A stretch of 64,000 nucleotides of DNA from Armatimonas rosea (GTDB lineage Bacteria; Armatimonadota; Armatimonadia; Armatimonadales; Armatimonadaceae), in assembly GCF_014202505.1 (NCBI RefSeq), contig NZ_JACHGW010000001.1, positions 868,001-932,000 of the forward strand, given 5' to 3'. The notes below the pieces were generated by a model that saw only the letters and a program-made list of their open reading frames with translations, was not told the origin of the DNA and ran no database searches. Shown one piece after another: positions 35,652 through 51,073 of this stretch. Positions within the stretch are counted from its first letter, which is position 1. Each line of letters begins with the position of its first letter. The position numbers and the translations under genes were made by a program.

Positions 35652-35689
35652 CTAACTCTAACGCTGGGCTAATGCCTCCCCGCTAAAGT
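35652..35689 (+). promoter_or_regulatory. CTAAC-repeat promoter element, copy 1 (candidate SARP site)
   Basis: CTAAC units begin at 35652, 35658 and 35669 (the last is CTAAT), so spacings are 6 and 11 bp. The intervening GCTGGG is shared with copy 3. Exactly 10 nt after the last unit is TAAAGT (35684-35689), fitting a TANNNT -10 box. The ATG of the large lipoprotein is 23 nt further. Confidence 0.7.
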
Positions 35690-35712
35690 TTGAGCCAGGA
35701 GGAGTTTTTCCG

Positions 35713-38352
35713 ATGCAACGACGACGATTTCTACAACTGGCACTTGCCGCCCCGGTAACCGCACTCGCAAGCGGCTGTGGTGGGGGCTGGAACCTCGGCT
35801 TTGGCCCCATCCGTGGCGGCGGTGGCGGGACGACAGGCTCTCTCACCCTGGGGCGCATGGCTGCGACTGTGGACCATGGGAGCCTCATCGGAACACTGCC
35901 CACCTACACGGCGCTCCAGGTTGCGACCGCGTTTGGGAGCGAGAGCCCAGCGGCCAGTGGGGCGGCCAGTGTTCAGGTCATTCAGGCAGAGACGACCCTC
36001 GGATTCGTGACCGAGGCAAGCGGCGCGATCCTCTACTACGGCTGGCTCTCCGGCACGCAGACGGCGCTCTCCGCGGCGAGCACGGCGGAGGTGCTTCTCT
36101 ACTATGCACTGGCGGGCTACCTCCTGCCTGCCGAGATTCAGGAGAGAGTCCGCGCGATTATCGCCGCCAGCGACTCGGTGCGGCTGCGCATTGGACCGGC
36201 GGTCGCGAGCTTCCTGGCTGCAAACCCCAAGCGCCTGAGCGGGGACACGACCAGCCTACTGGGCTTGGTTGCCACCGAGGCGGAGAGCCTCCTGCCTGCG
36301 GTGAGTGCGGCCACACGTGGCGTGATCATCCAGACACCGGGCCTCCGCAGTGGTGTTGAAGTCGCTCAGTCCAAGGAGCCTAATGCCGTTTTTGCACAGA
36401 ATAAGTACCTGCGCCGCGCGATGCTGGTGGTCAACCAGATCGGCTACACGGATAGCAAAAATGTTCCCATTGATCAGCTGGTAGCGCCGCGTGTCCCCCT
36501 ACAGCTCAGCCTCTCCGAGATTCCTGTCCCCAAGTCCTACGATAGCTTTGCCAACACGATCTCGGGCTGGATCGAGGCCTACTACAGTAATAAGACCTTC
36601 GATGATGGCTCGATCGATGCGGGCTTCTTTAGCTCGGCATCGGATGTGGTAGGGCTGAAGGTCAACCCCGACGGAGCGCTTAGGACAAAGTACCGTGCCT
36701 ATGTCCTGATGCCAGGGAGTGTCCCCGGCAACGAAGAGCACCTGGCGGAGCTCTTGCCTGCACAGCGTGAGTATGTCGAGGGAGTCAACCTGAAGAACCT
36801 CTACCTCCGTCTGTTCTTTGAAGACCTCCTCGCCCCCTTTGTGCTAAGCTTCGTGGCCGGGAAGCTGGCAGGCGATAAGGAGCTGATCAAGGGACTGACG
36901 GAGGAGCTCCTCAAGGCGGTCCGTGAGGTGCTCCCCGGACAGCTGGAGCTAGTGGCTGGCGGGAGAAGGAAGCCTCTGGATGTCTTTATCGTGCTGGTGA
37001 AGTCTATGACGATCGACCCGGCAACCGGGGCGACCTCGGGGAGCTTCCAGAAGATTGTCGGGACCACGATGCAGTTTCTGTTCAAGCAGCTTACAGGCAA
37101 TGGTCCCGAGCTCTTTGCGAAGAATGTCACCGAGGGGATCAATATCAATGGCACCATTGTTCCTGGAGTCGGGCGGCTTGTGGCGATGCTGGAGGCGACC
37201 GACAAGCTCCTGGACTCTGTCAACCGAAGTCGCCTGTTTGTGGACTCGACCATCAGCAAGAAGCTCGAGTTCTGGGACATAGAGGTTGATAACTTCAAAG
37301 TCGAGCTCACACCTGCGGAGTCGGTCGTGGTGCAAGGCGATGGGGTTGTGGAGCTTAAAGTAAACCTGCGTGATGCCAAGGCAGGGGAGGGGCAGTTCTT
37401 TTCCTACACCTGGAGCTGCAGCTCTGGACGCCTCACCGACGGGCTCCAAGGCAATGGAAAGCGGATCGAAGCCAGCACGGCAGCGAGCGTCAGCTACCAC
37501 GCCGAGGGAGCTGTCGGGGAGACGGATACCGTCACGGTTCAGGTAACTCTCCGAGGGCCGGGCAGTAAGGACAGCCTGGTGCTGGGAACCGCCGAGGCAA
37601 AGGTCAATGTGGTGGGGCTCACGGTGACTCCCGCGACCACAACCCTGAAGAACCAGGAGACGGTTGCCTTGACGGGCAACCTCGCGGGGTTGCGTCCTCT
37701 GAAGGCAGGGGAGACACTGGAGTACCGCTGGCTGACGACCAGAAACGCAGGCGAGCTCCTCGGGTCCCCGGACGGTGGCCTCTCGGTTCCTGTGGAAGGG
37801 ACTACCCGTGTGACCTACCGCGCCGATGTGGCCAAAGAGGGGACAGACACTGTCACGTTTGAGGTTGCCCTCGCCGGAACGAGCATACGCCTCAAGAGGA
37901 CGGCCTCCGTTGCGGTGGGTAAGCCGCAAGATAAGGTGCTGCCTGTCATTCAGGGAGTCTTCTTTGACGCGACGGGAAGCACGGCGACCGCAGGACTCGT
38001 GGTCAAGTGTGCGACCTTCAAGATCGATCCGGCGGCCCAGTCCTATAGCGTGAGCATCGCCAGTGGTGCGACAACCACATGGCGCATCCAGGCAAAAGAT
38101 GTCGCGGCCACTGCTTCGGGTGTCGACACAACGACCTTTGGTATCGACAAGACCTGGGAGTCTGGCTTTACCTTTCCAGGAATGACAAAGAATTACCAGA
38201 TCTTCTATCGGCTCGAGGATACCATTGTCGCCATGGGGCCAACCCAGCACTGGGGGCCGAACTTGTTCTTCAAAACACGTCAGCAGGCTGTGGATAGCTT
38301 GAACGCGAGTAATGCTTCCTTTGAAATCAGCAAGGCAGTGGCTCACTACTAA
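35713..38352 (+). CDS. Large Tat-type lipoprotein with C-terminal Ig-like domains, paralogue A
   Basis: 879 aa, no named family. The N-terminus QRRRFLQLALAAPVTALASGC has a twin-arginine motif and a lipobox (ASGC), so it should be Tat-exported and lipid-anchored. A Gly-rich linker follows (GGGWNLGFGPIRGGGGG). Residues about 45-530 are a conserved helical region shared with paralogue B (42769). Residues about 530-640 and 640-735 look like two Ig-like/cadherin-type beta domains (AGEGQFFSYTWSCSSGRLTDG...ETDTVTVQVTLRG; LTVTPATTTLKNQETVALTGNL). The last 130 aa are unlike paralogue B. First gene of a unit with the SARP-like regulator 33 nt downstream. Function unknown. Confidence 0.85.
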   Translation: MQRRRFLQLALAAPVTALASGCGGGWNLGFGPIRGGGGGTTGSLTLGRMAATVDHGSLIGTLPTYTALQVATAFGSESPAASGAASVQVIQAETTLGFVTEASGAILYYGWLSGTQTALSAASTAEVLLYYALAGYLLPAEIQERVRAIIAASDSVRLRIGPAVASFLAANPKRLSGDTTSLLGLVATEAESLLPAVSAATRGVIIQTPGLRSGVEVAQSKEPNAVFAQNKYLRRAMLVVNQIGYTDSKNVPIDQLVAPRVPLQLSLSEIPVPKSYDSFANTISGWIEAYYSNKTFDDGSIDAGFFSSASDVVGLKVNPDGALRTKYRAYVLMPGSVPGNEEHLAELLPAQREYVEGVNLKNLYLRLFFEDLLAPFVLSFVAGKLAGDKELIKGLTEELLKAVREVLPGQLELVAGGRRKPLDVFIVLVKSMTIDPATGATSGSFQKIVGTTMQFLFKQLTGNGPELFAKNVTEGININGTIVPGVGRLVAMLEATDKLLDSVNRSRLFVDSTISKKLEFWDIEVDNFKVELTPAESVVVQGDGVVELKVNLRDAKAGEGQFFSYTWSCSSGRLTDGLQGNGKRIEASTAASVSYHAEGAVGETDTVTVQVTLRGPGSKDSLVLGTAEAKVNVVGLTVTPATTTLKNQETVALTGNLAGLRPLKAGETLEYRWLTTRNAGELLGSPDGGLSVPVEGTTRVTYRADVAKEGTDTVTFEVALAGTSIRLKRTASVAVGKPQDKVLPVIQGVFFDATGSTATAGLVVKCATFKIDPAAQSYSVSIASGATTTWRIQAKDVAATASGVDTTTFGIDKTWESGFTFPGMTKNYQIFYRLEDTIVAMGPTQHWGPNLFFKTRQQAVDSLNASNASFEISKAVAHY
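35782..36350 (+). repeat. Near-identical duplicated tract, copy A
   Basis: 569 bp matching 42838-43406 with only four differences that I counted by eye, although the genes differ clearly on both sides of the tract. It encodes the Gly-rich linker and start of the shared region. Probably a recent gene conversion. Confidence 0.75.
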
Positions 38353-38385
38353 GCGTCGTCGTTTGCAGGAAGGCACAGCTCTTGC

Positions 38386-41001
38386 GTGGAATCAAGAGCT
38401 GTGGAACCTGTCTGGCGGATCGCACTCTTTGATGGCCCCCGGCTCTTGACCCCCGAGGGTAGCGAGGTGCGGCGCTTTCGCTCTCAGCGGGTGGCGGCGC
38501 TCCTGGCCTACCTGTGCCTGCACCTAGGACGAGACTGCCCGCGCGAGGAGCTCGCCGAGGCGCTCTGGCCTGACGAAGACCCGCAGGTCACGGCGAATCG
38601 CCTCCGTGTCTCGCTGACCTCGCTGCGCCACCAGCTCGAGCTTCCCGGCATGGCGCCCGGCTCGGTTCTCGATGCGACCCGCGCGGGCTACGTGCGGCTG
38701 CGCAGCGAGAGTGTCTGGTGCGATGTCGCGGCCTTTGAGAAAGCGCTCAAGCAGGGCAATCCCGCCGAGGCCGCGCAGCTGGCCTGTGGCGCGCTCCTCC
38801 CGGGCTTCTACGACGAGTGGATTCTCATGGAGCGGGAGCGGCTGGAGGCACTACGGACGAGCCTTCCGCAGGTCGTACCAGCTCCTCTCGCCACTCCCGA
38901 GGTGACGACTCCCGTGGAGCGCCGCTTGCCGGTCGCCCTGACACGCTTCTTTGGGCGCGCCACGGAGCAGGAGCGGCTCACACACGCCCTCACCGAGGAG
39001 CGCTTGGTCACTCTTGTAGGATTGGGCGGCATGGGCAAGAGCCGCCTCGCGGTCGAGACCGCGCGCCGCCTCGCGCTCCCTAGTGTCTTTGTCCCGCTGG
39101 CAGACCTCACCGAGGAAGCCCGGCTGGGGGAGTTTGTTCTGCGTGCGCTAGGAGCCAGCACACAAGGGGAGGGAGACCCCCTCGCGGCGCTGGGGACACT
39201 GCTGACCCACCGTGGGGAGCTCCTCCTGATCCTGGACAATGCGGAGCACCTCGCCAGTGAGGTGGCAGCGCTCACCGTGACCCTGCTGGAAAAGGCCCCT
39301 GAGCTACGCATCCTAGCCACTAGTCGTCAGCCCCTCGGGATTCTCGGGGAGCGGGTGCTGACACTAGAGCCACTGGAGCTGCCCAGCGCCCACGCAACCC
39401 CGGAGCGCCTCCTGGAGTTTCCCTCGGTTGCGCTCTTCTGTGACCGTGCGCGTCAGGTCCGTCCTGACTTTGTCCTTACCCCACGCCACACCCCCGCGCT
39501 GATTGCGATCTGCCAGAAGCTTGAGGGGATGCCGCTCGCGCTGGAGCTCGCCGCCGCCCGCACCCGCACCCAGACCCCCACCCAGCTTGCCGCCGCCCTC
39601 GACGAGAGCCTCCTGACACTGGCGACCACCCAGCGCGGCCTCCCCGAGCGCCACCGCTCCCTCCGCGCTGTGGTCGAGAGTAGTGTCGCGGCGCTCGACC
39701 CTGCACTTCAGGCGTTCTTTGCCGCTCTCTCGGTCTTCCAAGGCGGCTGGACCAGTGAGGCCGCGGAGGCGATCACCGGCTGCCCCCAGACCGAGCTCTT
39801 TCTGGAGGAGCTGACCCACCACTCCCTGATCACCCTGCGTGAGGACGAGCTCTCGGGGACGATGCGCTTTGGTTTCTTGGAGACCCTGCGCCTCTTCGCC
39901 GCGGAGCGCTGCACCGAAAAAGAGCGCCTCGCCGAGCGCCACGCGAGCTACTTTTTCGCCCTCGCCGCACAAGTGAACGAAGACGATGTGCGCTTCTTCG
40001 ATCCGCTGGAGCCTGAGCTGGAGAACCTTGCCCTGGCACTCGACTATGGCTGGGAGCACTTGCAGGACAGACACGCGTTCTGGGACGGCCTGACGGGGTT
40101 TCTGGCCTTCGCCTTTGTTCGGGGGCACCACCGCCGTGCTATCGGGTACGCCGAGCGCATTGCGGCAAGCTGGCAGTGCATCCCCGAGCCCGAGCAACGC
40201 TTCGAGGCACTCAACCGCACTCTGATGCTCTACAACGACTTGGGGCGCAACGACGAAGTCGCACGCCTCGCGACGGAGATGCTGACGCAGGCACAGGCAC
40301 GGGGGCTGCGGCGCTGGGAGAGTGAGGCACGCATGAACCTAGGCTATGTCGCCAACCAAGCGGGGCGCTATGAAAAAGCACGCCAGATTCAGCGGGAGGC
40401 GCTCGAGCTGGCACGTACTCTGGACAACCCCCTGGTCTTGGTGCGCGCCTTGTTCTTGGTAAACCGTGCCACCAACCCCTGCGGCATTATGCTTCTCCAG
40501 AGCGATCCCCAGAGAGCTGCTGCGCTCTTGGCCGAGGCGGAGGCCGTCAACCAAGAGGCCCTGCGACTGATCGGGCCGCACTCGCGCTTCCACTCCATTC
40601 TCCACATGGGGCTCGCTCTCTCCCTCTTCAACCAAGGACGCACGGCGGAGAGCTACCAGCACCTCAAGGCGTGTCAGCACTGGGCGCTGAAGCACGGAAC
40701 CCTGGCACTCCTGATGTACGCGTTCTGGTACGAGAGTAGCACCGAGCTGGTGTCGGGCTCTCCAGAGCGCGCGGCTCTGCTCTATGGCGCGTTCTGCCAC
40801 CTGCGGGAGCGCATGGGCTACTCGGCCAACCTAGGGGTCGATGAGCACGCGCTACGAGAGCACTATCTCACTCTCTTGGACGAGGAGACCTACGAGTGCC
40901 AGCTACGGCTCGCGCACTCCCTGTCTCTGGAGACGCTTGTCGCACCGCGCACCTGGGACGAGCTGGTGGCGGGAAAAATCTCCCCCAAGATCGCGCATTA
41001 G
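38386..41001 (+). CDS. AfsR/SARP-like transcriptional regulator (BTAD + P-loop ATPase + TPR-like)
   Basis: 871 aa. Residues about 8-100: winged-helix DNA-binding domain of the SARP type (WRIALFDGPRLLTPEGSEVRRFRSQRVAALLAYLCLHLGRDCPREELAEALWPDEDPQVTANRLRVSLTSLR). Residues 100-155: bacterial transcriptional activator domain (FEKALKQGNPAEAAQLACGALLPGFYDEWILMERERLEAL). Residues about 185-480: NB-ARC-type ATPase with Walker A VGLGGMGKSRLA, Walker B LLLILDNAEHLA and RILATSRQPLG. The C-terminal 390 residues are helical TPR-like repeats. The start is GTG at 38386 with AGGAAGG upstream. It is a transcription activator gated by nucleotide and likely by a sensed partner. It lies between the genes carrying the CTAAC promoter element. 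Confidence 0.9.
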   Translation: MESRAVEPVWRIALFDGPRLLTPEGSEVRRFRSQRVAALLAYLCLHLGRDCPREELAEALWPDEDPQVTANRLRVSLTSLRHQLELPGMAPGSVLDATRAGYVRLRSESVWCDVAAFEKALKQGNPAEAAQLACGALLPGFYDEWILMERERLEALRTSLPQVVPAPLATPEVTTPVERRLPVALTRFFGRATEQERLTHALTEERLVTLVGLGGMGKSRLAVETARRLALPSVFVPLADLTEEARLGEFVLRALGASTQGEGDPLAALGTLLTHRGELLLILDNAEHLASEVAALTVTLLEKAPELRILATSRQPLGILGERVLTLEPLELPSAHATPERLLEFPSVALFCDRARQVRPDFVLTPRHTPALIAICQKLEGMPLALELAAARTRTQTPTQLAAALDESLLTLATTQRGLPERHRSLRAVVESSVAALDPALQAFFAALSVFQGGWTSEAAEAITGCPQTELFLEELTHHSLITLREDELSGTMRFGFLETLRLFAAERCTEKERLAERHASYFFALAAQVNEDDVRFFDPLEPELENLALALDYGWEHLQDRHAFWDGLTGFLAFAFVRGHHRRAIGYAERIAASWQCIPEPEQRFEALNRTLMLYNDLGRNDEVARLATEMLTQAQARGLRRWESEARMNLGYVANQAGRYEKARQIQREALELARTLDNPLVLVRALFLVNRATNPCGIMLLQSDPQRAAALLAEAEAVNQEALRLIGPHSRFHSILHMGLALSLFNQGRTAESYQHLKACQHWALKHGTLALLMYAFWYESSTELVSGSPERAALLYGAFCHLRERMGYSANLGVDEHALREHYLTLLDEETYECQLRLAHSLSLETLVAPRTWDELVAGKISPKIAH

Positions 41002-41014
41002 AGTTGCAGAGTCG

Positions 41015-41052
41015 CTAACTCTAACGCGGGGCTAACGCGAGCGGTCTATCCT
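41015..41052 (+). promoter_or_regulatory. CTAAC-repeat promoter element, copy 2
   Basis: CTAAC units at 41015, 41021 and 41032 (spacings 6 and 11), then exactly 10 nt to TATCCT (41047-41052). It lies 46 nt before the PEP-CTERM gene. Confidence 0.7.
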
Positions 41053-41098
41053 GCCTCCATCCGCACACAGAGGCGGTGCAGAAAAGGACCGATAAACC

Positions 41099-41992
41099 AT
41101 GCGACTGCAGAGACCTATTCTTACCCTTGCGATGATTCTTACCTTCGGGGCCATCGCTCAGGCACAGACCGTTGATCCCTACGTCCCCCTCTTTCGGCAC
41201 TTGTTAGGCTTTGCCCGCGACACCACGCCCAACGGTGTCTTTGACGGGCCTTTTGAAGATATCGACGGGGACGATCTTCCGATACCGGGCAGCTACCACA
41301 TGGGAACAACCCTGGTGCGCGATGGGGCGACCATTACCTACACGGCAAACTCGAACTACGCGGGCTTCTTCGCCGCCAAGAACGACACGTCGCTGAGCAT
41401 CTCCAATATCCAGCACCAGGGCTACTACACCATCGCAGGGCAGGGCTCGCACACCCAAGTTCAGTTCTTCGCGCCCGTCACGCCCGCTGAGGCGACTTTT
41501 AACTGGAAGGTGACCGGCACCGCGAGTGCGCCCTACGGCACGGCCACCAGCCGCCTGGACTTTCTCGCGGGCAGCTACCCCGGCTCGGGGATCAACGATC
41601 TCTACAACGCTCCGGGGCACCTGCTCGCCTACGGCCCCGGGAACTATAGCTACGTCCTCCCGACCACCCTCAACACCCCCATCGATCTGTTCTACTGGTC
41701 CAGCGCCTATATCGAGGTGCAGGACACCGACACTGCGGGCCGTGTGGGGCAGTCGTTTAGTGCCTTTGCCAACTTCTCCAGCACCTACACCCTAGAGAGC
41801 ATCGACCTGCGGGACAGCAACGGCGATCTCATTCCGTCGTGGACCATGGAAGACACCAGTGCGCCGGGTGTTGCTCTCTTTAACCAGAATGGACGCACGG
41901 CCGCCGCAGGAAGCTCCGCACCCGAGCCGACTACGCTTCTCTTTCTTACGCTTGGGGGCACCTTGGTCCTGGCGCGCCGCCGACGGAGCTAA
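41099..41992 (+). CDS. PEP-CTERM sorting domain protein
   Basis: 297 aa. Signal peptide (LQRPILTLAMILTFGAIAQAQ); the C-terminus SAPEPTTLLFLTLGGTLVLARRRRS has the PEP motif, membrane helix and Arg cluster that direct exosortase processing. The middle is beta-rich (ITYTANSNYAGFFAAKNDTSLSISNIQHQGYYTIAGQGSHTQVQFFAPVTPAEATFNWKVTGTASAPYGTATSRLDFLAG). No ligand-binding family recognised. It is preceded by CTAAC element copy 2 and followed, 3 nt later, by the 228-aa gene, so the pair is one transcript. An extracellular or cell-surface role is inferred. Confidence 0.83.
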   Translation: MRLQRPILTLAMILTFGAIAQAQTVDPYVPLFRHLLGFARDTTPNGVFDGPFEDIDGDDLPIPGSYHMGTTLVRDGATITYTANSNYAGFFAAKNDTSLSISNIQHQGYYTIAGQGSHTQVQFFAPVTPAEATFNWKVTGTASAPYGTATSRLDFLAGSYPGSGINDLYNAPGHLLAYGPGNYSYVLPTTLNTPIDLFYWSSAYIEVQDTDTAGRVGQSFSAFANFSSTYTLESIDLRDSNGDLIPSWTMEDTSAPGVALFNQNGRTAAAGSSAPEPTTLLFLTLGGTLVLARRRRS

Positions 41993-41995
41993 GTA

Positions 41996-42682
41996 ATGAA
42001 GAACTACCAAGCGCCCGCTCCCAAGCTCACCACGCAGAAATTCCCCGATGGGAGCGGCCAGATCGGGGTTGCGCCGGGTTGGAAGCTCGACGACGGCGGG
42101 GCGGGGGCGGCGCTTCTCTCCGGGCCAGGCGGTGCGGCCATGCAGCTGGGGCAGTACCGCTTTGTCTTTGCCCATAACTACGACCAGCGGACCCTGACAC
42201 CCGGTGTCAACCCCGAGGTGCCGCGGGTCCACCTCGACGATCCCGTGCTCGCGATGATCGAGGCGACAGCGCTCCTTCAAAAGGCGGGGCTGCTCAGCAA
42301 GCTCAAGCTCAAGGGGGTCGAGCCCGCGCCTTGGTTTCCGCTCGGACGCTCCGCACTGATGCGCTACAGCTTTGTCTACCAAGGCAAGCCCCTGGAGGCG
42401 TTTGGGCTCTTCACGGTTGTCGCCACCGACGCGCTATCGGGCTCGTACTTCTACTCCGTGGTCATGGCCCCGCCCGAGAGCTACGTCAAGCGCCTGCCGG
42501 AGATGAAGGCCATGTGGGGCTCGTGGAGTATCAGCCAGACGCTGCTGCAAGGCCGGCTCGACAACGCCGCCAAGATCATTGGGGAGATCGACGTGCCGTC
42601 GCACCTGGATGATTTTCAGCAGAAACAGCGCCTCGAAGCCCTCAAGGCCGCACGGAAATTCCAGGCGCTGATCCGCAACTAG
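41996..42682 (+). CDS. Hypothetical protein of the CTAAC regulon
   Basis: 228 aa, no signal peptide or membrane helix, no family recognised. The text reads like a small alpha/beta protein (KFPDGSGQIGVAPGWKLDDGGAGAALLSGPGGAAMQLGQYRFVFAH; PAPWFPLGRSALMRYSFVYQGKPLEAFGLFTVVATD; SYFYSVVMAPPESYVKRLPEMKAMWGSWSIS). This pattern (polar start, SGPGG, then WSIS near the end) resembles domains in eukaryote-like lipid or PsbP-type proteins, but the likeness is too weak to name. The ATG is 3 nt after the PEP-CTERM stop, so it is co-transcribed. Confidence 0.72.
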   Translation: MKNYQAPAPKLTTQKFPDGSGQIGVAPGWKLDDGGAGAALLSGPGGAAMQLGQYRFVFAHNYDQRTLTPGVNPEVPRVHLDDPVLAMIEATALLQKAGLLSKLKLKGVEPAPWFPLGRSALMRYSFVYQGKPLEAFGLFTVVATDALSGSYFYSVVMAPPESYVKRLPEMKAMWGSWSISQTLLQGRLDNAAKIIGEIDVPSHLDDFQQKQRLEALKAARKFQALIRN

Positions 42683-42696
42683 ACGAAGGGAGCAGT

Positions 42697-42734
42697 CTAA
42701 CTCTAACGCTGGGCTAACACGGCGAGGCTACTCT
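42697..42734 (+). promoter_or_regulatory. CTAAC-repeat promoter element, copy 3
   Basis: CTAAC units at 42697, 42703 and 42714 (spacings 6 and 11), then exactly 10 nt to TACTCT (42729-42734). The ATG of paralogue B is 34 nt further. Confidence 0.7.
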
Positions 42735-42768
42735 GCTTGCATTCACATCTTGAAAGGCTCATGAAAAC

Positions 42769-45360
42769 ATGCAACGACGAAACTTTCTCCGGCTTACTGC
42801 GGCGCTTCCGCTGACCACGCTCTTGCAGGGCTGCGGAGGGGGCTGGAACCTCGGCTTTGGCCCCATCCGTGGCGGCGGTGGCGGGACGACAGGCTCTCTC
42901 ACCCTGGGGCGCATGGCCGCGACCGTGGACCATGGGAGCCTCATCGGAACACTGCCCACCTACACGGCGCTCCAGGTTGCGACCGCGTTTGGGAGCGAGA
43001 GCCCAGCGGCCAGTGGGGCGGCCAGTGTTCAGGTCATTCAGGCAGAGACGACCCTCGGATTCGTGACCGAGGCAAGCGGCGCGATCCTCTACTACGGCTG
43101 GCTCTCCGGCACGCAGACGGCGCTCTCCGCGGCGAGCACGGCGGAGGTGCTTCTCTACTATGCACTGGCGGGCTACCTCCTGCCTGCCGAGATTCAGGAG
43201 AGAGTCCGCGCGATTATCGCCGCCAGCGACTCGGTGCGGCTGCGCCTTGGACCGGCGGTCGCGAGCTTCCTGGCTGCAAACCCCAAGCGCCTGAGCGGGG
43301 ACACGACCAGCCTACTGGGCTTGGTTGCCACCGAGGCCGAGAGCCTCCTGCCTGCGGTGAGTGCGGCCACACGTGGCGTGATCATCCAGACACCGGGCCT
43401 CCGCAGCGGGGTAGAGGTCGCCCAGTCCAAGGAACCCAACTCGGTCTTTGCAACCAATAAGTACCTGCGCCGCGCGGTGCTCGTGGTCAACCAGATCGGC
43501 TACACGGACAGTAAAAACAACCCCGTCGATCAGCTGGCTGCGCCCCTTCTCCCTCTGCAGCTCACCACGGCGGAGATTCCTGTCCCCAAGTCCTACGACA
43601 GCTTTTCCAACACGATCTCCGGCTGGATCGAGGCCTACTACAGCAACAAGACCTTCGATGATGGCTCGATCGATGCGGGCTTCTTTAGCTCGGCATCGGA
43701 CGTGGTGCCGCTGAAGGTCAACCCAAGTGGCGCGCTCAAGACCAAGTACCGTGCCTATGTTCTCATGCCGGGGAGTGTCCCCGGCAACGAAGAGCACCTG
43801 GCGGAGCTCCTGCCGGCACAGCGCGAGTATATCGAGGGAGTCAACCTAAAGAACCTCTACCTCCGCCTGTTCTTTGAGGATATTCTTGCTCCCTTTGTCC
43901 TGAGCTTTGTGGCCGGGAAGCTGGCAGGCAATAAGGACCTCATCAAAGGGCTGACCGAGGACCTCCTGAAGGCCGTTCGCGAGGTGCTCCCTGGGCAGAT
44001 AGAGCTGGTGGCTGCAGGACGAAGGAAGCCCATGGAGGTCTTCACGCTCCTGGTGAAGTCCATGACCATCGATCCGGCAACCGGGGCGACCTCGGGGAGC
44101 TTCCAGAAGGTTGTCGGGGCGACGATGCAGTTTTTGGTCAAGCAGCTCAGCGGCAATGGCCCGGAGCTCTTCGTGAAGAATGTCACCGAGGGGATCAATA
44201 TCAATGGCACCGTGGTTCCTGGAGTCGGGCGGCTCCTGGCAATCCTGGAGGAGACAGACAAGCTCCTGGACTCTGCCAACCGTGGCCGTGTGATCCTCGA
44301 CTCCACCATTAGTAAGAAGCTTGAGTTCTGGGACATGGAGGTCAATAACTTCACGGTTGGGCTAACCCCCACCGAGGCGATCGTCCCCCACGGCGACCTA
44401 ATCGCCTCCCTCAAGGCGAACCTAAAAGACGCCAAGCCGGGCGAGGGACAGTCGTTTATGTACAAGTGGAGCTGCAACTCGGGACGGCTGGTCGATGGGG
44501 TTCAGGGCAACGGAAAGCTTATCGCCGCCACGACTGCCGATAGCGTGAGCTACCACGCCGAGGGGCCGGCGGGTGAGACAGACACAGTGACCGTCGAGGT
44601 GACCCTCAAGGGGCCGGGCAGCAAGGACAGCCAGGTCCTGGGCACCGCGGAGGCAAAGGTCTATGTCACCGAGCTGAGCGTGACGCCCAGCACCGCCACG
44701 CTCAAGAACAGCGAGACAGTCGCCCTGAGCGCGCAGCTGAAGGGAATGCGGCCGCTCAGCTCCGGCGAGACCCTGACCTACAAGTGGCTGACCACACGCA
44801 ACGCCGGTGAGCTCCTGGGCTCCCCCGACGGGGGCACGGGGATTGCGGTGGAGGGGCAGAGCGCAACCTACCGCGCCCACGCCTCCGCAGAAGGTGCCGA
44901 CACAGTCACGGTCGAGGCGCTCTTGGGAACCCGCTCCCTGGGGAAGGCTACCAGCAAGGTCACGGTCGGCAGTAATGTCGTGGTCGTGCCAGGGCGCTAC
45001 AAGATCCTGAGCTGGGCCCGCAACGATCCTGCGTCCTTCCCCGGCCTCTACCAAGTGAATGCCTATGTGGTCGTCCCCCGCATGGCCAATGCGAAGTCCT
45101 ACCGCATCCATGCCTACACGGCGAGCGAGAACAGAGACCTCTCGCTGGGAGCGGAGCCTTTGGATAATCTGCCGGAGTGGGACCTCTCGTATGGCTGGGG
45201 GGGGACACTAGGCAACATCTATCTGACAATGCCCGAGGTCTCCCGAGTCGGAAACGAGGTCTATATCATGATCTCAGGCTCCGGGGGAGACTCCACAACA
45301 GCCCAAGCCTTTGAAAACCGGTTCCAAGGAATGACGGTTGAGGTGACTATTCATCTCTAG
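42769..45360 (+). CDS. Large Tat-type lipoprotein with C-terminal Ig-like domains, paralogue B
   Basis: 863 aa. N-terminus QRRNFLRLTAALPLTTLLQGC: twin-arginine motif and lipobox (LQGC). Residues about 40-720 align with paralogue A throughout, including WIEAYYSNKTFDDGSIDAGFFSSASDV and KKLEFWDMEVNNFTV, followed by two beta domains (AKPGEGQSFMYKWSCNSGRL; LSVTPSTATLKNSETVALSAQL). The last 110 residues differ from A (RYKILSWARNDPASFPGLYQVNAYVVVPRMANAKSYRIHAY), so the two probably present different C-terminal ligand-binding domains on a common stem. Driven by CTAAC element copy 3. Function unknown. Confidence 0.85.
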   Translation: MQRRNFLRLTAALPLTTLLQGCGGGWNLGFGPIRGGGGGTTGSLTLGRMAATVDHGSLIGTLPTYTALQVATAFGSESPAASGAASVQVIQAETTLGFVTEASGAILYYGWLSGTQTALSAASTAEVLLYYALAGYLLPAEIQERVRAIIAASDSVRLRLGPAVASFLAANPKRLSGDTTSLLGLVATEAESLLPAVSAATRGVIIQTPGLRSGVEVAQSKEPNSVFATNKYLRRAVLVVNQIGYTDSKNNPVDQLAAPLLPLQLTTAEIPVPKSYDSFSNTISGWIEAYYSNKTFDDGSIDAGFFSSASDVVPLKVNPSGALKTKYRAYVLMPGSVPGNEEHLAELLPAQREYIEGVNLKNLYLRLFFEDILAPFVLSFVAGKLAGNKDLIKGLTEDLLKAVREVLPGQIELVAAGRRKPMEVFTLLVKSMTIDPATGATSGSFQKVVGATMQFLVKQLSGNGPELFVKNVTEGININGTVVPGVGRLLAILEETDKLLDSANRGRVILDSTISKKLEFWDMEVNNFTVGLTPTEAIVPHGDLIASLKANLKDAKPGEGQSFMYKWSCNSGRLVDGVQGNGKLIAATTADSVSYHAEGPAGETDTVTVEVTLKGPGSKDSQVLGTAEAKVYVTELSVTPSTATLKNSETVALSAQLKGMRPLSSGETLTYKWLTTRNAGELLGSPDGGTGIAVEGQSATYRAHASAEGADTVTVEALLGTRSLGKATSKVTVGSNVVVVPGRYKILSWARNDPASFPGLYQVNAYVVVPRMANAKSYRIHAYTASENRDLSLGAEPLDNLPEWDLSYGWGGTLGNIYLTMPEVSRVGNEVYIMISGSGGDSTTAQAFENRFQGMTVEVTIHL
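42838..43406 (+). repeat. Near-identical duplicated tract, copy B
   Basis: Matches 35782-36350 (offset 7056) with four differences by eye. See that entry. Confidence 0.75.
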
Positions 45361-49042: not shown

Positions 49043-49501
49043 CTAGGGAGTGCTCGGCTGGCCTTTTCCTAGGCGGCGCAGGAGCGCATCCAGGGTTGCT
49101 TGCTCGTCGGGGGTCAGGAGCGCCAGCTCCTGTGCGACCGCGGCGGCGTGGCGGGGGAAGAGCTCCGCGATCCGTGCTTCTCCGGCCTCGGTCAGGTGGA
49201 CATAGACAATCCGGCGATCGCTCTCGCAGCGCTGACGGCGCACCAGCTCAAGCTTCTCTAGGTTGTCCACGATGACGGTGAGGTTGTTGGGGCTTCTTAG
49301 GTGCTTGCGGGCGAGCTCGGAGAGCTTCAGCGGCCCGAGGTGGTGGAGTGCCTCCAGGACCCCGAACTGTCCCTCGGTCAGGCCGGAGTCGTGAACCACC
49401 ACCAGGGCGCGCCGCGCGACTGACTCGGCGGCGCGCATGAGCTTGATGTAGGTATTTAGTGCCCGTCTTTGGTCGTCCGGACCCTCAAAGTGGGTTGGCA
49501 T
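49043..49501 (-). CDS. MarR family transcriptional regulator
   Basis: 152 aa winged-helix repressor type. Seen: YIKLMRAAESVARRALVVVHDSGLTEGQFGVLEALHHLGPLKLSELARKHLRSPNNLTVIVDNLEKLELVRRQRCESDRRIVYVHLTEAGEARIAELF, with the recognition helix around SPNNLTVIVDNLE and the wing DRRIVYVHLT. The target is unknown; pirin-encoding gene upstream on the same strand is a candidate (MarR-pirin pairs are common). TATAAT lies 5 nt before the ATG. Confidence 0.92.
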   Translation of the reverse strand: MPTHFEGPDDQRRALNTYIKLMRAAESVARRALVVVHDSGLTEGQFGVLEALHHLGPLKLSELARKHLRSPNNLTVIVDNLEKLELVRRQRCESDRRIVYVHLTEAGEARIAELFPRHAAAVAQELALLTPDEQATLDALLRRLGKGQPSTP

Positions 49502-49506
49502 AGGGC

Positions 49507-49512
49507 ATTATA
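49507..49512 (-). promoter_or_regulatory. -10 box of the marR gene
   Basis: TATAAT on the minus strand, 5 nt before ATG 49501. It lies just after the pirin stop codon region. Confidence 0.55.
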
Positions 49513-49518
49513 CCGAAG

Positions 49519-50217
49519 TTACGGCAGGTCGAAGAGCAGCACCTCGCTGGCGGCGCTGGCGACCAGCGCGAGCTGGGTCTCGTCCTCGATCCGCGCGGCA
49601 TCCCCGGCCTTGAGCACCTCCCCGTTGACACTTACCTCACCCGTCACAATATGCACATAGGCGCGGCGTCCGTCGGCGAGCGTGTGGCTGCGCTCCTCAC
49701 CAGGCTCTAGCAGCGTGGTCAGCAGCTCGGCGTCTTGGTGGATGTGCATCGCGCCGTCGCGCCCCGTCCCCGAGACCACGACCGCCCACTTGCCGCGCTT
49801 TGCGCTCTCCGGGAGATGGCTCTCGCCGTAGCGGGGTGCCGCGCCACGCACGTTGGGCTCGATCCAGATCTGGAAGAGATGCAGCCACTCGGTGGGGGAG
49901 GCATTGTACTCACTGTGGTAGACCCCGGTTCCGGCGCTCATGCGCTGGATATCGCCGGGCTTGAGGACACCCTTGCCGCCGGTGTTGTCCTCGTGGGCCA
50001 GGGAGCCAGAGAGGACATAGGTCACGATCTCCATGTCCTCGTGGGGGTGCATTCCAAAGCCGCGGCCGGGACCGAACTTGTCCTCGTTGATGACCCGCAG
50101 GGGGCCGAAGCCCATGTTGGTGGGGTCGTAGTAGGTATTGAACGAGAAGGAGTGGTAGGCATCCAGCCAGCCCCGGTTGGCATGGCCGCGCTCGTGGGAT
50201 CGTCGAATCGTTAGCAT
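49519..50217 (-). CDS. Pirin family protein (YhhW-like)
   Basis: 232 aa bicupin. The start is LTIRRSHERGHANRGWLDAYHSFSFNTYYDPTNMGFGPLRVINEDKFGPGRGFGMHPHEDMEIVTYVLSGSLAHED, with the metal ligands His, His, His and Glu in GMHPHEDME and GTGVYHSEYN. Members oxidise quercetin in vitro, but in vivo roles are varied. The ATG at 50217 begins the conserved domain and follows GAGG; codons further upstream overlap the mqnD gene's end region. Confidence 0.92.
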   Translation of the reverse strand: MLTIRRSHERGHANRGWLDAYHSFSFNTYYDPTNMGFGPLRVINEDKFGPGRGFGMHPHEDMEIVTYVLSGSLAHEDNTGGKGVLKPGDIQRMSAGTGVYHSEYNASPTEWLHLFQIWIEPNVRGAAPRYGESHLPESAKRGKWAVVVSGTGRDGAMHIHQDAELLTTLLEPGEERSHTLADGRRAYVHIVTGEVSVNGEVLKAGDAARIEDETQLALVASAASEVLLFDLP

Positions 50218-50260
50218 GGTTTGTTGTTCCTCTGAAGAAAATAACAAGCGGCGCTTAAAA

Positions 50261-51073
50261 TTAGTTCCAATTGGAAGTAAAATAATCGACCGCCGCGTTG
50301 CCCTCGCTCCCCAGGTCGTAGGAGTACGCATTGACATAGAGCCCGATATGCGCCTCGATCACGCCGTCGGTGAGGTCTTGTGCGTGCTCACGGCAGAGGG
50401 CAAGGGCCTGCTCACGGTGGGAGTCTGCCCAGGTGAGGCTCTCGCGGATCAGCGCCGCCACCGGATCGGCAAGCCCGAGGGCACGACGGCACAGGATCGC
50501 CCCGAGCGGGATGGCATAGCCGGTCTGTGCCTCCCAGAACTCCCCGAGGTCCTGGATCAGGGTCAGCCCATCGGCCTCGTAGGTGAAGCGCTTCTCATGA
50601 ATCACCACGCCTTGCGCACCGGGAACCGTTCGGAGCTCCTCGTAAAGGGTGTCAAAGGGGAGGTATTGCCTCCCCCCGGCGCCGAGACGCCGACCCCCTC
50701 CGGCTTCGCGAAGGGGGGGATTGTTGAGCCAGAAGTCTAGCAGGAAGTTAGCGGTCGTCTGTGCACCGGGAGCGAGGACGGTCTGCGTGGGATCGAAGGG
50801 AGCATCGCCGTTCTTGAGCAGGAGCGGCCCGCAGCCCCGCCCGAGTGCGCCGCCGCAGGGGAGGAGCTCGTAGGCCGTCTTTAGCGCGGGGTAGGCGGCG
50901 TAGCTGACCTTGATAATGTCGAACTGCTCGGTTGCGGCGGCCTCGTTGGCGGCCTGGACATCGAGGTAGGTCGTCTCAAAGGTCAGCTCGGGGTGCGCGA
51001 CATGCCCCAGCAGAATCCCGGCGAAGATATACACATCGTTGGGGCAGGGGGAGATGCAGAGTTGTAGAGTCAT
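50261..51073 (-). CDS. mqnD: 1,4-dihydroxy-6-naphthoate synthase (futalosine menaquinone pathway)
   Basis: 270 aa. MqnD converts cyclic dehypoxanthine futalosine to 1,4-dihydroxy-6-naphthoate. Seen: LCISPCPNDVYIFAGILLGHV, FDIIKVSYAAYPAL, LPCGGALGRGCGPLL, GAQTTANFLLDFWL, YLPFDTLYEELRTVPGAQGVVIHEKRFTYEADGLTLIQDLGEFWEAQTGYAIPLGAI. Between LLDFWL and YLPFD the protein has an extra NNPPLREAGGGRRLGAGGRQ segment, encoded by a palindromic repeat (50663-50729) in frame. The downstream enzymes UbiX/UbiD-like are encoded nearby at 51787 and 54939, although not in the same operon. Confidence 0.9.
   Translation of the reverse strand: MTLQLCISPCPNDVYIFAGILLGHVAHPELTFETTYLDVQAANEAAATEQFDIIKVSYAAYPALKTAYELLPCGGALGRGCGPLLLKNGDAPFDPTQTVLAPGAQTTANFLLDFWLNNPPLREAGGGRRLGAGGRQYLPFDTLYEELRTVPGAQGVVIHEKRFTYEADGLTLIQDLGEFWEAQTGYAIPLGAILCRRALGLADPVAALIRESLTWADSHREQALALCREHAQDLTDGVIEAHIGLYVNAYSYDLGSEGNAAVDYFTSNWN
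50663..50729. repeat. Palindromic repeat inserted in frame in mqnD
   Basis: Contains CCTCCCCCCGGC...GCCGACCCCCTC, which is also present in the recQ insertion, and a terminal hairpin (CCCCCTCCGGCTTCGCGAAGGGGG). It encodes about 20 Gly/Arg-rich residues absent from typical MqnD. Confidence 0.65.

Follow-up and report, generated by a model that had tools for sequence, protein, structure and literature searches.

The locus described here belongs to a window of 64,000 nt of Armatimonas rosea DNA, by which we mean the whole stretch analysed, and consists of a regulatory gene accompanied by genes for two large lipoproteins, a PEP-CTERM protein and a 228-aa protein, in the order and reading frames given by the first-pass annotation (Table 1). 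The lipoprotein genes share 84% identity over 2.1 kb and are recent duplicates; homologues of the lipoproteins occur in just 2 of 60 other genomes searched. The neighbourhood does not qualify as a biosynthetic gene cluster, and its other members encode a TolB-like protein and an aldo-keto reductase. The regulatory gene starts 33 nt past the stop codon of the lipoprotein 1 gene with no terminator-like site between them, so that promoter 1 probably drives the regulator too and the two genes are probably co-transcribed.

Table 1. Genes, predicted operators and promoter elements of the A. rosea locus (window coordinates)
Feature	Position	Strand	Remarks
Operator 1 (predicted)	35652..35673	+	CTAACTCTAACGCTGGGCTAAT; promoter-proximal unit pair 11 bp apart
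-10 box TAAAGT, promoter 1	35684..35689	+	10 nt past the last unit; same register in most other SARP-linked promoters
Large lipoprotein 1, 879 aa	35713..38352	+	Predicted target of promoter 1; paralogue of 42769-45360
AfsR-like STAND regulator, 871 aa	38386..41001	+	Winged helix, truncated BTAD, NB-ARC/AAA ATPase, TPR region
Codons of recognition-helix residues R69 V70 S L T S74	38605..38622	+	Correspond to AfsR R87 T88 ... S91 R92 by alignment
Operator 2 (predicted)	41015..41036	+	CTAACTCTAACGCGGGGCTAAC
-10 box TATCCT, promoter 2	41047..41052	+	
PEP-CTERM protein, 297 aa	41099..41992	+	TIGR02595 above cut-off; predicted target of promoter 2
228-aa protein	41996..42682	+	Begins 3 nt past the PEP-CTERM gene
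Operator 3 (predicted)	42697..42718	+	CTAACTCTAACGCTGGGCTAAC
-10 box TACTCT, promoter 3	42729..42734	+	
Large lipoprotein 2, 863 aa	42769..45360	+	Predicted target of promoter 3
Predicted operator DNA bearing the CTAACG repeat			CTAACGCTGGGCTAAC

The regulator carries an OmpR-type winged helix at its N-terminus, as SARPs do, and the NOD/NB-ARC and TPR C-terminal parts of the large, AfsR-type members. In Pfam, the N-terminus matches Trans_reg_C (1.5e-7) and the central part AAA_22 (5.9e-8), with a TPR_16 match (9.7e-5) that falls below Pfam's cut-off; the receiver domain expected of an OmpR/PhoB response regulator is not detected by the same scan. Searched against the PDB as a single sequence, the regulator has no match, while a profile built from 28 paralogous winged helices retrieves AfsR (7e-14) and EmbR (1.6e-11) as best solved structures, and these two are also the best fold matches of the winged-helix domain, predicted with a pLDDT of 96. 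The recognition helix is predicted at residues 61-79, with residue numbers matched to AfsR by alignment. The first-pass name of 'BTAD-type regulator' holds for the winged helix and not for the rest: Pfam BTAD has no match in this protein, in which about 45 BTAD-like residues align with AfsR after the winged helix before the ATPase begins, and the same model matches 12 other SARP genes of this genome at 41-86 bits. With such a truncated BTAD the protein would work like a SARP, even though it fails strict membership as judged by that domain.

The three promoters, which had been proposed to share CTAAC units in a fixed arrangement, do so with a single slip. The units stand at +0, +6 and +17 from 35652, 41015 and 42697, and exactly 10 nt separate the last unit from the -10 box in all three copies; the slip is in copy 1, whose last unit reads CTAAT instead of CTAAC. 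A search of the region for sigma-70 promoters yields none that has a -35 box. Within the window, a search allowing up to three mismatches yields four matches against 0.35 expected, a count reached in none of 100 shuffles. The earlier statement that the motif precedes no other gene examined extends to the whole genome (6.33 Mb, 19 contigs, both strands), where CTAACTCTAACGCNGGGCTAAY with up to three mismatches is found at the three window sites alone. With the looser pattern CTAACN6CTAACN10TANNNT and at most one mismatch, one more site appears, C12:39730, which has another SARP gene about 0.4 kb away; the motif is not one that is common in unrelated promoters. The 22-bp motifs are identical to one another at 20-21 of 22 positions, while the 60 bp upstream of them match at 15-18 of 60, which is chance level. 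Given these unrelated flanks, gene duplication alone does not account for the shared motif, despite the 84% identity of the lipoprotein genes.

The published rule for SARPs (PMC10936776) asks for direct repeats at 11-bp spacing, of which the 3' one stands 8 bp from the -10 element, and this geometry is present at the window promoters. AfsR of Streptomyces coelicolor with its afs box (a large SARP; PDB 8hvr, 8jke, 8k60; PMC10936776) resembles the A. rosea system in its winged helix, by profile and by fold, in the order of winged helix, BTAD-related segment, nucleotide-binding domain and TPR, and in the two 11-bp direct repeats that lie just upstream of the -10 box and overlap a poor -35. It differs in that the window regulator has a BTAD of only about 45 residues, an operator word of the NTAACG class, lipoproteins and a PEP-CTERM protein as targets instead of antibiotic regulation, and membership in a large family of paralogues in a different phylum. 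SARP-LAL regulators such as PimR (PMC5930380) likewise use direct repeats of heptamers spaced by 4 nt (11-bp pitch), in some cases three, but the PimR operator does not overlap the -35 region, its consensus is CGGCAAG and its C-terminal half is LAL/guanylate-cyclase-like. EmbR of Mycobacterium tuberculosis (PDB 2fez, 2ff4) has the same winged helix and BTAD fold and ends in a forkhead-associated domain, where the window regulator ends in the ATPase and TPR part.

Unlike the triple repeats of PimR, the third unit of the window is not placed at 11 bp: the first CTAAC lies 17 bp upstream of the last unit, half a turn from the 11-bp pair, and is kept in all three promoters. Such a unit was sought in 37 other SARP-linked sites and found in none of them, third units at other SARP-linked sites standing at 23 bp. 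The extra upstream CTAAC unit is thus specific to the window locus.

The genome contains about 44 proteins that share the ATPase part of the regulator in a protein search, about 32 of them with an AfsR/SARP-type winged helix and about 11 with a cyclase-like N-terminus in its place. The ATPase-based count of some 44 SARPs was dropped for this reason; nine of the proteins (L054, L057, L060, L064, L070, L071, L072, L074 and L081) combine the same ATPase/TPR body with a class III cyclase-like N-terminus (FLFTDIEGSTRLWE). Stretches of up to 19.5 kb around the 44 or so proteins, together with 20 control stretches, were used to scan upstream DNA with no preset word. Of the 274 upstream regions lying no more than five genes from these proteins, 21 have direct repeats at a pitch of 11 with TANNNT at a fixed distance, compared with 0-5 regions for each other pitch from 8 to 23. 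When the register is exact, with 10 nt between the NNNAC unit and TA, and SARP genes alone are counted, 20 sites have pitch 11 and 15 have pitch 12, other pitches giving 0-5. In DNA far from these genes and in control DNA, pitch 11 is only weakly in excess, with 14 sites in 175 kb, in part distal sites with SARP words.

The repeated words vary by locus, as with CTTAC (L041), CACACG (L043), TTTAC (L047), TATACG at a 12-bp pitch (L052) and GTCCAC, also at a 12-bp pitch, in both promoters flanking one regulator (L053). Some recur far from their own locus: the word of L045 is found again, exact, at C8:48915, and the GTAACG word near L063 also at C2:47304 and C1:795121. Two sites 4 kb apart near the L068 SARP, C2:187912 and C2:191974 (G000; L275, L276), share TTAACGGGGCTTTAA; the promoter of that SARP has its own word, GTCTACG, and TTAACGGGGCTTTAA is possibly a second local word. 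An acidic residue 92 accompanies the 12-bp pitch at L052, L053, L055 and L061 in this genome and is inconsistent elsewhere; the association (Fisher p = 0.015) is not claimed here, as L265, with D92, has pitch 11. Among the controls, the tandem repeat CTGTGGATAAC upstream of a gene at L127:12562 (G000:C2 ~52561) was set aside owing to its resemblance to DnaA boxes, and it perhaps lies near the replication origin.

The pattern extends beyond this genome. By profile, SARP-type winged helices are present in 20 of 21 near-set genomes and 61 of 121 genomes of the phylum, the source genome counted. A scan of named genomes with the regulator sequence alone found no relative; with a smaller alignment as query, matches come mostly from Armatimonadetes, Armatimonadaceae, Chthonomonas, Abditibacteriaceae and Fimbriimonas, which supports the first-pass assignment to this phylum. 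Close SARP relatives are also seen in records labelled Acidobacteria, Methanoregulaceae, Actinomycetota and Planctomycetota (L306, L313, L314, L331). In 79 stretches from relatives, the exact register gives 35 sites at pitch 11 versus 3-9 at other pitches, and 26 held-out loci from named genomes peak again at pitch 11, whereas the signal is weaker and noisier in the other set, of new-family loci. Matching helices in different genomes keep their words, as in the pairs L047/L188 (TTTTAC), L186/L240 (TTTAACG), L170/L230 (TCTCAC) and L181/L234 (TGAGAGA), and the CACACG word of the L043 target promoter is found again, in another species of the genus, ahead of the homologous gene. Both here and in the relatives, most SARP words lie less than 1 kb from the gene of their own SARP. 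The scan gave any site at all for only 54 of 109 SARPs in the discovery set and 18 of 43 in the held-out set, some of these sites being chance. About half of the SARP-type regulators of this genome and of Armatimonadota have a nearby predicted operator of the same geometry, whose word appears to follow the recognition helix.

In the AfsR structure (PMC10936776), R92 contacts the base at -38/-27, and T88 the one at -36/-25. With the TA of the -10 box placed at -12, the variable triplet of the words falls at -27 to -25. Helix-word pairs were made automatically, with residues numbered as in AfsR. In the discovery set, helices with R or K at position 87 go with an AC core in 21 cases and an AG core in 4, versus 0 and 13 for helices with S or N (p = 4e-7); in held-out loci the corresponding ratios are 5:1 and 0:4 (p = 0.048). 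V88 goes with A at position 3 of the triplet, before the core, in 9 of 10 cases versus 5 of 27 (p = 1.4e-4). The pairing of residue 88 with base 3 was a prior hypothesis drawn from the AfsR structure, while the broad residue-base search covered 91 pairs, among which the associations of residue 87 were the strongest. Within-genome permutations give p = 0.00014 for residue 87 and 0.0013 for V88. Relatedness as a source of the covariation is not fully removed, since p rises to 0.03-0.10 when a single pair is kept per helix cluster (13 pairs). Nor does the residue-87 rule hold everywhere, since AfsR has R87 and yet an AG-type half-site (-35 element TTCAGC, PMC10936776); its T88 paired with C does fit.

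The helix of the window regulator, with R87 and V88, pairs with the word CTAACG. Other R87/V88 helices stand beside TTAACG (L186, L240), TTAATG (L201), TTAACG/GTAACG (L286), GTAACG (L314) and CTAACG/ATAACG (L320); one further R87/V88 SARP (L221) has a different and distant site that is probably due to chance. The conservation in relatives on which the first-pass proposal had been made to depend is therefore found, since regulators from other parts of the phylum that share the recognition helix have nearly the same word alongside. Of the evidence for reading of the three sites by the local regulator, this agreement among R87/V88 words is the strongest. The L043 regulator has H88 where that of the window has V88, and CACACG where the window has CTAACG, which is consistent with such a helix-word code.

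Very probably, then, the three CTAAC sites are the operators of the regulator encoded at 38386-41001, which would activate the three promoters as AfsR does, its own gene being reached via promoter 1. Two adjacent protomers would occupy the CTAACG half-sites nearest the promoter, at 11-bp spacing, and so cover the poor -35 region, 8 bp before the -10 box when counted from the heptamer CTAACGC; there they would hold sigma region 4 and RNA polymerase at promoters that have no good -35, as AfsR holds them. Activation of promoter 1 would yield lipoprotein 1 and the regulator itself, creating positive feedback, that of promoter 2 the PEP-CTERM and 228-aa proteins, and that of promoter 3 lipoprotein 2, while the ATPase/TPR parts may gate activation in response to a signal. 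The truncation of the BTAD counts against this reading, as that domain contacts the polymerase in AfsR. The SARP interpretation first given to the locus is thus supported by geometry, rarity and the match of helix and word, and needs correction on three points: the BTAD is not complete, the extra upstream unit belongs to this locus alone, and the regulon is not isolated but a single case of a pattern seen across the genome and the phylum.

The sites might be operated chiefly by another SARP, above all the paralogue L040 (C1:306757-309360), or by both regulators. L040 is 62% identical to the window regulator with a nearly identical DNA-binding domain, the helices differing at few positions (RFSLSSLRH versus RVSLTSLRH), and has no CTAAC site of its own nearby. 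All three CTAAC sites, however, surround 38386-41001, and the habit of SARP words in this genome and its relatives is to lie within 1 kb of their own gene, which makes control chiefly by L040 unlikely, although the two regulators may share the sites. Reading by an unrelated factor is considerably less likely still. OmpR-type winged helices have the same fold, and PhoB-type sites have an 11-bp repeat, so that a response regulator of the OmpR/PhoB type might use such direct repeats; the repeats are nevertheless enriched near SARP genes, and their words are locus-specific and co-vary with the helix of the adjacent SARP.

That the motif is a by-product of duplication with no regulatory role is hardly credible. 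The lipoprotein genes are recent duplicates, but the second copy of the motif precedes an unrelated gene, the flanks are at chance level next to motifs that are nearly identical, the register to the -10 box is exact and the genome has no further copies.

To our knowledge, SARPs are known almost solely as activators of antibiotic production in actinomycetes, and we know of little structural understanding of their operator choice apart from that gained mainly via AfsR. A full-text search of the open-access literature, with subscription papers outside its scope, found no paper on SARPs in Armatimonadota. The locus predicts an undescribed layer of control over secreted and surface proteins, in a phylum that has received little study. 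Of wider interest is the collection of recognition helices and matching words across the phylum: dozens of paralogues, often with a word adjacent in a fixed register, provide natural protein-DNA pairs for deriving a recognition code, so that target choice by such switches can be inferred from genome sequences and is open to testing. Our judgement is evenly divided on the general proposition that Armatimonadota have expanded AfsR-like STAND activators into largely insulated switches with private words and a rigid shared promoter layout, in which specificity would come mainly from helix positions 87 and 88 and operator words would be predictable from the protein.

The predicted targets give a view of what such switches may control. 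The L043 SARP module holds a relative of the 228-aa protein (31% identical) and also a relative of the window lipoprotein, so that regulator, 203/228-aa protein and lipoprotein evidently form a recurring module. Elsewhere, the predicted SARP targets include pilin-like DUF1559 proteins, a papain-like protease, a transporter and a cupin. The predicted target beside L041 (L041:10769-12505; G000:C5 ~49269-51005) matches the Pfam thiol-activated cytolysin family at 5.2e-22, which is unexpected for an Armatimonadota genome.
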